Shown piece by piece: positions 24,190 to 27,010 of a DNA stretch of 37,363 nucleotides. The position numbers were made by a program, and so were the translations under genes. Source of the DNA: Bacteroidota bacterium (GTDB lineage: Bacteria > Bacteroidota > Bacteroidia > Chitinophagales > Saprospiraceae); contig JAFMDF010000059.1 of the NCBI GenBank assembly GCA_017857395.1, positions 1 to 37,363 on the forward strand. The letters run 5' to 3'. The first letter of the stretch is position 1; every line of letters begins with the position of its first letter. Below the pieces are notes generated by a model that saw nothing but the letters and a program-made list of their open reading frames with translations, made no database searches and was not told where the DNA came from.

Positions 24190-25995
24190 ATGCAACAATT
24201 TTTTAAGTTTGTTTTTGCCTCTTGCTTAGGCGTTTTATTATCTACTTTAGTCTTAAGTTTTTTAGCGATTGCCCTTGTTGGTGGTGCGGCTGCTAGTTTA
24301 GGAAGTAAAGAAGCGGTGTCTGTTCGACCTAATTCTGTATTAGAACTTAATTTTAATAATGTTTTGCCAGAGAAAACGAATAATGTTGCTCAAGAAGGCT
24401 TTACGTTGGAAAATAAAGATGTAGTGGGTTTGTTTGATGTTTTGGCGGCTATCGACTATGCTAAAACAGATGATGACATTAAAGGAATTTACTTAGATTT
24501 AGATAGTGCACCGGGAGGGATGTCTACTCGTTCAAATTTACGAGATGCGTTGATAGATTTCAAAGAGAGTGGTAAATTTATTGTGGCGCACTCTAAGTTT
24601 TATACACAAAGTGCTTATTACTTAGCTTCTGTAGCGGATGATATTTCTGTGCATCCAACTAGTATGTTGGGGGGCGTTGAATTTACAGGATTTGGGCGGC
24701 AGATTCCATTTTATAAAAACGCTTTAGATAAATTGGGTATCAAAATAGAAGTTTATTACGCGGGGCAATTTAAAAGTGCTACGGAATCTTACCGTTTAAC
24801 AGAGATGAGTGACCAAAATCGACGTCAGATAAAAGAATATTTAGGTCCATTGTATGAAAAATATTTGGCAGATATTAGTGAATCTAGAGATGTTTCGGTG
24901 GCAGAATTAAAACGAATTGCGAATGAGTGGCTTGTTAGAGACCCCAAAGATGCCGTTGCTTACAAATTGATAGATAGGGTAGCGTATAAGGATGAAGTAT
25001 TAGATTTACTGAGAGAAAAAATTGGATTGGAGGCTAAGGATAAAATTTATAAAGTAGGCTTAGAAGATTATGTAGGAAAAGCAAAACCTTCTGTGGATTA
25101 TTCTGTGAAGGATAAGATTGCGGTTATTTATGCAGAAGGCACGATTACTTCTGGAAAAGATATGCCTGGTTCTGTTACGGATGATGATTATGGGCCAATG
25201 ATTAGAAAAATTCGACAAGATGATAAAATCAAAGGTATTGTCTTGCGGGTAAATTCTCCAGGAGGAAGTGCGCTTTCCTCTGAAAGTATTTGGAGAGAAT
25301 TGAGCTTGGCGGTTGAAGAAGGAAAACCTGTAGTTGTTTCTATGGGAGATTATGCGGCCTCTGGGGGGTATTATATTGCTTGCATGGCAGATAAAATATT
25401 TGCAGAACCAACGACTATTACAGGTTCAATCGGTATATTTTCGACCATTCCTAATGCTAGTAACCTATTGCAGAATAAATTGGGCATTACAATGGATACA
25501 TTGAATTTAGCAACACATGCTTCTGCCTTGAATACGATACCATTTCATGAACACTCTCCTAAATTTAAAGCCGTTTTTCAACAGATGACAGATCAAGGCT
25601 ACGAACAATTTTTAGGTAGAGTGGCAGAAGGCAGAAAAATGACCAGAGACGAAGTGCACGAAATCGCTCAAGGCCGAGTTTGGACAGGTTCGAAAGCCAA
25701 GGAATTAGGTTTGGTAGACGAGTTGGGAGGTTTAGATGCAGCGATAGCAGAAGCGCAAGAATTAGCAGGCTTAGAGAAATACCGTATTACTGAATACCCA
25801 AAAGTAAAAGACCCGCTCCAACAATTCATGGATAAGTGGTTAAATATGCCAAGTGCAACTGCAACAGCGGCTACTAAGCAAGCGATTCTGAAAGAAGAAA
25901 TGGGGGAGTTATACCCGTTTTATAACCACTTAAAAGAAGTATCAGAAATGAAAGGCTTACAAGCTAGAATGCCTTTTTTAATGGACATTCAATAA
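24190..25995 (+). CDS. sppA: Signal peptide peptidase SppA (protease IV, long 67K type)
   Basis: SppA is a membrane-anchored Ser/Lys protease that degrades cleaved signal peptides, with its active site on the outer face of the inner membrane. The 601-residue product has an N-terminal membrane segment (about 7-35) and the tandem S49 domains of the long form. The N-terminal domain carries the general base, K195, in A-G-Q-F-K-S-A-T-E-S-Y; the C-terminal domain carries the nucleophile, S391, in D-Y-A-A-S-G-G-Y-Y-I-A. These correspond to E. coli K209 and S409. Length and domain order match the family, and no key residue is missing. It is a single gene closed by its own intrinsic terminator. A role in handling signal peptides from the many exported proteins is natural, but proximity to the surface-protein genes proves nothing. 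Confidence 0.97.
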   Translation: MQQFFKFVFASCLGVLLSTLVLSFLAIALVGGAAASLGSKEAVSVRPNSVLELNFNNVLPEKTNNVAQEGFTLENKDVVGLFDVLAAIDYAKTDDDIKGIYLDLDSAPGGMSTRSNLRDALIDFKESGKFIVAHSKFYTQSAYYLASVADDISVHPTSMLGGVEFTGFGRQIPFYKNALDKLGIKIEVYYAGQFKSATESYRLTEMSDQNRRQIKEYLGPLYEKYLADISESRDVSVAELKRIANEWLVRDPKDAVAYKLIDRVAYKDEVLDLLREKIGLEAKDKIYKVGLEDYVGKAKPSVDYSVKDKIAVIYAEGTITSGKDMPGSVTDDDYGPMIRKIRQDDKIKGIVLRVNSPGGSALSSESIWRELSLAVEEGKPVVVSMGDYAASGGYYIACMADKIFAEPTTITGSIGIFSTIPNASNLLQNKLGITMDTLNLATHASALNTIPFHEHSPKFKAVFQQMTDQGYEQFLGRVAEGRKMTRDEVHEIAQGRVWTGSKAKELGLVDELGGLDAAIAEAQELAGLEKYRITEYPKVKDPLQQFMDKWLNMPSATATAATKQAILKEEMGELYPFYNHLKEVSEMKGLQARMPFLMDIQ

Positions 25996-26018
25996 GCTAT
26001 ATTCTATAAAAACATATT

Positions 26019-26053
26019 AAAAAAGGGTAATTGCAAAACAATTGCCCTTTTTT
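26019..26053 (+). terminator. Intrinsic terminator of sppA
   Basis: A 15-bp stem pairs 26019-26033 with 26039-26053, has one T-G wobble and a CAAAA loop, and ends in TTTTTT. It lies 23 bases after the sppA stop codon. The A-rich 5' arm could also let it work in the minus direction. Confidence 0.88.
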
Positions 26054-26110
26054 AATTTTATAATAAACTTTCCGTGGGAACTTAAATTCGTGGAAAAAAA
26101 ATTGAGATAA

Positions 26111-26273
26111 GTCACCAAGCAACGACTGTTTCATTCTAGGTCTTATTGGGCGGCAATTTCCCATTGCCGCCCCATTTTAGGCTAAAACAAGGCGGCAATG
26201 GGAAATTGCCGCCTTGTAAGTGAAACTGCTACAACTCCATTTTAGAGAATGAAACAGCTGTTGTCACCAAGCA
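26111..26273. mobile_element. MITE/REP-like nested palindrome flanked by 11-bp direct repeats
   Basis: The outer 12-bp inverted repeat CTGTTTCATTCT (26126-26137) / AGAATGAAACAG (26246-26257) encloses two GC-rich hairpins. Hairpin one has a 10-bp perfect stem (26148-26157 / 26163-26172, loop TTCCC). Hairpin two has a 12-bp perfect stem (26188-26199 / 26205-26216, loop GGGAA). The 23-base cores of the two hairpins are exact reverse complements of each other. GTCACCAAGCA occurs directly repeated just outside, at 26111-26121 and 26263-26273, like a target-site duplication. No transposase is encoded. Its GC-rich hairpin cores stand out in an AT-rich gap. Confidence 0.6.
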
Positions 26274-26374
26274 GAGCTTGGCGCTACAGAAAAAATATCT
26301 GAGATAAAAAACATGTCGCCAATTTTTTTGTTTATTCGCTATTACTTAATTCATCATCAAAAGCGGGAAAGAAT

Positions 26375-27010
26375 ATGAATCGAAGAAATATAGCACCACA
26401 CGATATCAGTTACGAAGAAGACAGCGTATCGCTAACGTTCCATCCCTATAATATTTTATTGACCTTTACTTTAGCAGGTATTACGGCGCTCTTTTTTGCC
26501 TTTTCTGCGGCCTATTTATATACGAGAGTGACTATGGGCATTCCGCCGATTAAATTACCGAGTTTATTTTTTGTCAATACTGCCTTATTACTGGGCACAA
26601 GTTATACCATGATTCTGGCGAAAAAGGCATACCTCAATGATAATACGGAAGGATATAAGAGCATGTTAGCAGTCACTATCGTTATGTCTATCATCTTTGT
26701 GATTGCCCAATTAATTGCTTGGCGGCAGTTATTCGGCCAACAAATCTTCATCAATTATAGCACGACGGCTTCTTATGTCTATGTGATTAGCGGCTTACAC
26801 TTTGCTCACGTTTTGGCAGGATTACCATTTTTGGGCTTATTTCTATGGACGGCACATAGCCGAATGAAAGAACCTGTCAGCGTTCTAGTTTATTTTTCTG
26901 ACCCAGAGAAGCAATTAAAACTAAAATTATTGACTCGCTATTGGCATTATTTAGATGCTTTATGGATTTATTTGGTAGTGTTTTTTAGTTTGAATTATTT
27001 GTTGAGTTGA
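26375..27010 (+). CDS. Cytochrome c oxidase subunit III-like membrane protein
   Basis: This looks like a heme-copper oxidase subunit III, the non-catalytic membrane subunit that stabilises the aa3-type oxidase core. The product has 211 residues with about five transmembrane helices (roughly 22-50, 61-86, 96-120, 131-162 and 187-211). Family signatures are S-G-L-H-F-A-H-V-L-A-G in helix four and the C-terminal Y-W-H-Y-L-D-A-L-W-I-Y-L-V-V-F-F. The length fits the short five-helix bacterial form. ATG 26375 follows a purine-rich G-G-G-A-A-A-G-A stretch. No subunit I, II or IV gene is adjacent: the neighbours are sppA and a UbiA-like gene. It is therefore either an extra copy or an isolated subunit. 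The fold assignment is firm; the oxidase it serves is unknown. Confidence 0.85.
   Translation: MNRRNIAPHDISYEEDSVSLTFHPYNILLTFTLAGITALFFAFSAAYLYTRVTMGIPPIKLPSLFFVNTALLLGTSYTMILAKKAYLNDNTEGYKSMLAVTIVMSIIFVIAQLIAWRQLFGQQIFINYSTTASYVYVISGLHFAHVLAGLPFLGLFLWTAHSRMKEPVSVLVYFSDPEKQLKLKLLTRYWHYLDALWIYLVVFFSLNYLLS

Follow-up and report, generated by a model that had tools for sequence, protein, structure and literature searches.

A 142-bp MITE-like element inserted into a dispersed REP-like repeat in the sppA-cox3 interval of a probable Bacteroidota genome

The sppA-cox3 interval

The window, the whole stretch of 37,363 nucleotides that was analysed, is contig C427 of a fragmented assembly (10.15 Mb in 631 contigs, 100% complete, 4.82% contamination). 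It contains a short inverted-repeat element in the intergenic DNA between the end of sppA at 25995 and the start of a cytochrome oxidase subunit III-type gene (cox3) at 26375. The element, designated family A and described as MITE-like, spans 142 bp on the forward strand (26121..26262) on the basis of three further copies of 142 bp, and the longest open reading frame lying wholly within it encodes 25 amino acids. A hairpin resembling an intrinsic terminator follows sppA (26016..26056, forward strand) and is separate from the element. No Rfam family reached its gathering threshold in the window, and the element was not matched in plasmid and phage collections at E-values up to 1e-5.

Comparison of the copies gave terminal inverted repeats (TIRs) spanning 17 bp with two mismatches. 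The left TIR, AACGACTGTTTCATTCT, was observed at 26121..26137 on the forward strand and the right TIR at 26246..26262 on the reverse strand, with 15 of 17 positions in agreement and a consensus of AACGGCTGTTTCATTCT. The perfect 12-bp outer arms of the original prediction were located at 26126-26137 and 26246-26257; the gap of 4-5 bases that it placed between these arms and the flanking direct repeats was not found, as the 17-bp TIR abuts the duplication in the copies. The target duplication GTCACCAAGC occupies 26111..26120, adjoining the left TIR, and 26263..26272, where it runs on into a second repeat, family B (both on the forward strand). The predicted direct repeats of GTCACCAAGCA were present at 26111-26121 and 26263-26273, but the duplication measures 10 bp and not 11, as the eleventh base, an A, belongs on the left to the element, of which it is the opening base, and on the right to the host. 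Taken on its own this repeat is weak evidence (8 matches with up to two mismatches, against 6.2 expected), and it is the other copies, together with the paralogous empty sites described below, that give it weight.

Inside the element we observed two GC-rich hairpins matching the pattern of a hairpin family designated C, one with a TTTCCCA loop (26145..26175) and the other in reverse orientation (26187..26217), both annotated on the forward strand. As had been proposed, each 23-base core (26149-26171 and 26191-26213) is the exact reverse complement of the other, and the conspicuousness of the cores was borne out by the count of GGCGGCAAT, which occurred four times in the window, always within the element, against an expectation of 0.24. 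Folding of 26105-26280 gave z-scores of -10.5 for DNA and -8.9 for RNA, and in each case none of 200 shuffled sequences was as stable. The clover-like structure suggested earlier was not recovered, the minimum-energy form being a single long hairpin in the centre that sits on the TIR stem. Positions 26142-26180 and 26182-26220 are arms of 39 nt that are 85% complementary. If the interior is transcribed, its RNA is predicted to fold into a long stable stem, which may lessen read-through between sppA and cox3; an effect of the element on transcription is possible.

Copies of the element and the repeat that it splits

Two of the 60 genomes searched, the source genome included, contained the element. 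Within the source genome two full-length copies were observed, that of the window and one on contig C13 (97%), together with three derived copies on C129 (83%), C107 (70%) and C477 (a palindromic fragment), and a congeneric genome (G006) contained two copies of full length, on C237 and C296 (95 and 94%). The element is thus not single-copy, with three further copies of 142 bp found elsewhere, and its copy number is low. All four full-length copies measured exactly 142 bp and started with AACGRYTG. Each was flanked by its own, different duplication of 9-10 bp abutting the TIR at the same boundary: GTCACCAAGC in the window, GTCAGACAC on C13, ATGCCTTAAG on C237 and AGTCTACTAT on C296. The alignment of these four copies places the ends of the element at 26121 and 26262 and sets the size of the window duplication at 10 bp. 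The ends of the C13 copy matched the TIR consensus at 17 of 17 and 16 of 17 positions. No clear duplication was observed for the decayed or shortened copies, whose flanks agreed at 6 of 10 (C129), 5 of 10 (C107) and 6 of 10 (C477) positions. The C477 fragment (L006:1501-1579) is a perfect palindrome of 79 bp that consists of the left end, a single hairpin and the left end again, a fold-back derivative of family A apparently lying inside another inverted repeat.

The right duplication is continuous with family B, a dispersed repeat of the form CTGTAGCGCCAAGCTCTGCTTGGTGA, and part of one such repeat was observed at 26263..26289 on the reverse strand, where it reads CTGTAGCGCCAAGCTCTGCTTGGTGAC. 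A search of the source genome with the stretch around the element gave 53 matches, of which at least 33 were family B by our own count, with 40 of 67 candidates scored. When the two flanks of the window were joined with a single duplication between them, the joined sequence aligned across the junction in all 18 family-B loci tested, these being the loci available among the 33 matches and representing 16 separate places (two pairs overlap). One locus (L023) had one additional base beside the junction, and at L012, L017, L018/L019 and L023 the alignment reached far into the left flank. Alignment across the junction indicates that the element split the family-B palindrome close to its centre. The element was thus inserted into an older REP-like repeat, and the empty sites with a single duplication anticipated by the original prediction exist in paralogous form in 18 of 18 loci.

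On our own reading, family B carries an unpaired GTAG beside its palindrome and is of the GTAG type, for which such an unpaired GTAG is described as a hallmark (PMC3733652). The lineages named for GTAG repeats in that account are Proteobacteria, Cyanobacteria, Chloroflexi and PVC bacteria (PMC3733652). The family-B palindrome was observed here in a probable Bacteroidota genome, as singles or as inverted pairs.

Relatives were examined at the corresponding places. Of 20 genomes, the source genome included, 16 had genes of the cox3 type, and in three of them (G002, G005 and G007), where sppA and cox3 are adjacent, the interval contained no sequence of the element and the intergenic DNA does not align. 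At the site orthologous to the C296 copy, G000, G005 and G007 each had both flanks on a single contig with no element between them; for the latter two genomes the left alignment ended 14 bases short of the element. The orthologous intergenic DNA is too diverged for a base-exact empty site, and the result is one of absence. A further dispersed short repeat, of the attcatcgttcatcgtttatcatt type, was observed at L092:1833-1880 and many other places in several genomes of the genus.

The interior hairpins and families D and E

Both interior hairpins fit the pattern AGGCGGCNNTTTCCNANNGCCGCCT within the allowed mismatches. At up to three mismatches this pattern had 40 matches in the genome, those in element A included, while the reversed control had none. 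A tighter pattern, GGCGGCNNTTTYCCANNGCCGCC, allowing one mismatch, was found in 3 of 60 genomes (26 in the source genome, 13 in G006 and 2 in G002), and a query with a family E element returned related hairpins in G002 (15 rows) and G005 (one). Family-C hairpins were observed singly, paired in doublets and arrayed in tandem, and two further MITE-like families, D and E, also contain them. Lone hairpins often lay directly after a gene: of the 40 matches 30 had loci, four of these were element A, and 9 of the other 26 started within 16 bp past the end of a mechanically defined open reading frame on the same strand. Doublets outside element A had a spacer of 7-18 bp. A tandem array of 91-bp units, each with a family-C doublet, was observed on contig C519 of G002 (L273:1-280), with three units seen and the contig end reached.

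Family D (L064:1464-1560, L081, L084, L243 and L062) has the ends GTATC...GATAC or variants of these, measures about 97-141 bp and contains one or two family-C hairpins; possible duplications of 7-8 bp were observed in L064 and L081 and were not clear in the others. Family E was observed in G006 (L239 at about 1423-1575, L241 and L099, the latter two 94 and 91% identical to L239), with ends near ACTACTATACA and a family-C doublet inside. The direct repeats at its flanks, e.g. TAAGCTGTGACCACA, measure about 9-15 bp; they lie beside the ends and do not always abut them. Judged by eye, the ends of families A, D and E appear unrelated.

The arrangement of the hairpins differed among these families. 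In D, E and the G002 doublets found by script, the hairpin with the GGGAAA loop comes first in the unit, an order reversed in all four full-length copies of A. The outer flanks of the hairpins in A are similar to the spacer inside D and inside one G002 doublet, and the inner spacer of A resembles the outer flanks of D (shuffle p-values of 0.0004-0.043, for short sequences picked by hand). These likenesses are suggestive of a hairpin pair in A that is circularly permuted relative to the doublets of D, E and the free array, as it might be if its source had been a tandem array or a circle. The family-C pair is a REPIN-like module of the lineage, probably acquired by the element. We tentatively entertain, while leaning somewhat to the other side, that this REPIN-like doublet moves as a module between unrelated small transposons and is more than filler, being selected in several MITE families. 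Such a module could provide structure for insulation, transcription termination or help in transposition.

Mode of transposition and relation to known systems

In its size, lack of coding capacity, TIRs, copy-specific duplications and dispersed copies, element A has the features of a MITE. It is very probably a 142-bp non-coding MITE with 17-bp TIRs, moved by a transposase acting in trans that is most likely of the DDE type, with a staggered cut giving rise to the 10-bp duplication. The non-autonomous mobile element with a target duplication that was originally proposed thus stands, on four of four copies of 142 bp, their differing duplications, the empty sites and the absence in relatives. 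As a mechanism, the transposase supplied in trans would insert the element, and its staggered cut would leave the 10-bp duplication at the target; the chemistry is deduced from the TIRs and the 9-10-bp duplications, which together are indicative of a DDE transposase.

Two other explanations were weighed against the MITE. The interval might hold a fixed, immobile regulatory structure that serves the sppA-cox3 region as a terminator or insulator, and the very stable fold would suit this, as would the nine family-C loci, of 26 not belonging to element A, that lie within 16 bp after a gene-like end on the same strand. A terminator-like hairpin already follows sppA, however, and the element is missing from three relatives that share this gene order. 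Its copies elsewhere, complete with duplications, and its absence in relatives refute a regulatory structure as the sole explanation, and we regard this account as extremely improbable. The second explanation is that of a REP doublet (REPIN or BIME) spread by a Y1 transposase of the RAYT type, with the outer repeats incidental. The hairpin family does include singlets, inverted doublets and a tandem array, and RAYT genes are present: seven Y1 transposase matches were found in the source genome, and the four that were classified comprised two IS200-type and two RAYT-type genes, the latter being the 2 of 4 that passed the REP_Tyr_transpos cut-off. TIRs and a target duplication are not known as features of REPs or REPINs, and the mobile unit of a REPIN is bounded by palindromes. 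The conserved unit in four of four full-length copies is instead the 142 bp that include the TIRs, with duplications of 9-10 bp, and an inverted pair of dispersed palindromes was found in the interior only.

Neither A, B nor C sequences were observed beside any of the seven Y1 genes in the available flanks, some of which were shortened by contig ends (the hairpin scan covered three of the seven loci), so that no RAYT gene sharing the ends of the element was found there. A hairpin 3' of a RAYT-like gene (L110:1063-1111) contains AACGGCTGTTT, which equals the outermost 11 bp of the consensus of element A; this may be chance, as an 11-mer is expected several times in 10 Mb. The suggestion of a REP doublet thus holds for the interior hairpins, with their repeated family, doublets and tandem array, and not for the whole unit, with its TIRs, its duplication and none of seven Y1 loci linked in the available flanks. 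What moves as a unit is a TIR element with a REPIN-like interior. For the element as a whole the RAYT account fails, and as regards the hairpins it is unproven; as an explanation of the locus we consider it very unlikely.

For the MITE, a partner transposase was sought by its ends. TIR-like sites at up to three mismatches numbered 67 in the source genome, against 45 for a control pattern. No autonomous insertion sequence (IS) with paired TIRs was found in the source genome, the genus, or the GTDB or viral contigs. Among 42 loci with an exact end (40 GTDB and 2 viral), only the sister MITE had an inward partner and a duplication within the locus, where loci extended to about 12 kb and a partner was allowed up to four mismatches within 5 kb. 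Individual inspection, which covered a minority of the sites with three mismatches, showed no inward second end at up to four mismatches for six other near-matches in the source genome, G006 and G008. The PF01609 transposases of G000 (two) and G006 (three), namely one ISAs1, one IS701-type and three unclassified, were rejected as partners, none having similar paired ends.

The DDE transposase could belong to the ISAs1 family, in which duplications are about 8-10 bp. The source genome contains one IS of this family (NF033564, E-value 1e-118; L188/L193 on C81) that measures 1234 bp, with perfect ends AATGGCAATCGCACGAAA that begin AATGGC and, at L193, a 10-bp duplication, ATACATAAGT. Matches in 21 of 298 family genomes gave 21 ISAs1 loci, of which 8 had duplications of 8-11 bp and 13 had none recognised; the 9-10 bp of the MITE fit this range, and the ends of ISAs1 and of the MITE share the start NAN-GG. 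A matrix was built from the ends of 14 members, leaving out L201 and L210 (near duplicates of L199 and L208) and L202, L207, L211, L212 and L213 (no clear ends). Members scored 4.7 to 22.4 on a leave-one-out basis, whereas the outer 17 bp of the MITE fell outside this range, with -2.3 for the consensus end and -8.1 and -8.5 for the window ends, all below every member. The consensus end nevertheless scored better than random (p = 0.007) and shuffled (p = 0.0025) sequence, in a single post hoc test picked after the ends had been seen, with the register set by hand and ISAs1 as the sole IS family compared. The resemblance in ends and duplication size is a lead only, weakly indicating a link between the sequences, and we rate ISAs1 as a possible source of the transposase that falls somewhat short of an even chance.

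Element A is of a known kind, a bona fide MITE family that is new to its lineage as far as searched. In literature on ISAs1, MITEs, REPs and Saprospiraceae/Bacteroidetes, the element was not described in titles or abstract openings. The family adds a well-bounded MITE with clean insertion evidence to a lineage that is very probably Bacteroidota, and it connects REP-type palindromes, associated with Y1 enzymes, with MITEs, associated with DDE enzymes, which are usually handled separately. The shared, permuted hairpin core is the part worth following. Should the hairpin pair truly recur in several unrelated TIR families, it may be asked whether it aids the transposon, protects host genes or is simply easy to capture.

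A target duplication is a feature of bacterial MITEs, as it is of element A. Bacterial MITEs, including RUP, NEMIS, ERIC and Nezha, are given as 70-300 bp in size with TIRs of 15-30 bp (PMC3733652), and element A is like those outlined there in these ranges, in being non-coding and intergenic, and in its strong secondary structure. It differs from them in its own TIR sequence, its host lineage and its REP-like doublet interior, and no autonomous IS was found here. With the REPINs or BIMEs and RAYTs as presented in PMC3116915 it shares an interior that is an inverted palindrome pair of a dispersed family, also present as singlets and a tandem cluster, while it differs in its TIRs and target duplication, the lack of a linked RAYT and its low copy number. 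BrickBuilt, a MITE of Porphyromonas gingivalis, is described with a tandem minisatellite interior of 23-nt units and 19 copies in one strain (PMC4596501). Like element A, it is an intergenic MITE of the Bacteroidota in which small inverted repeats at the ends enclose a repeated module; in that description the module is a minisatellite, whereas the interior of element A consists of paired hairpins.
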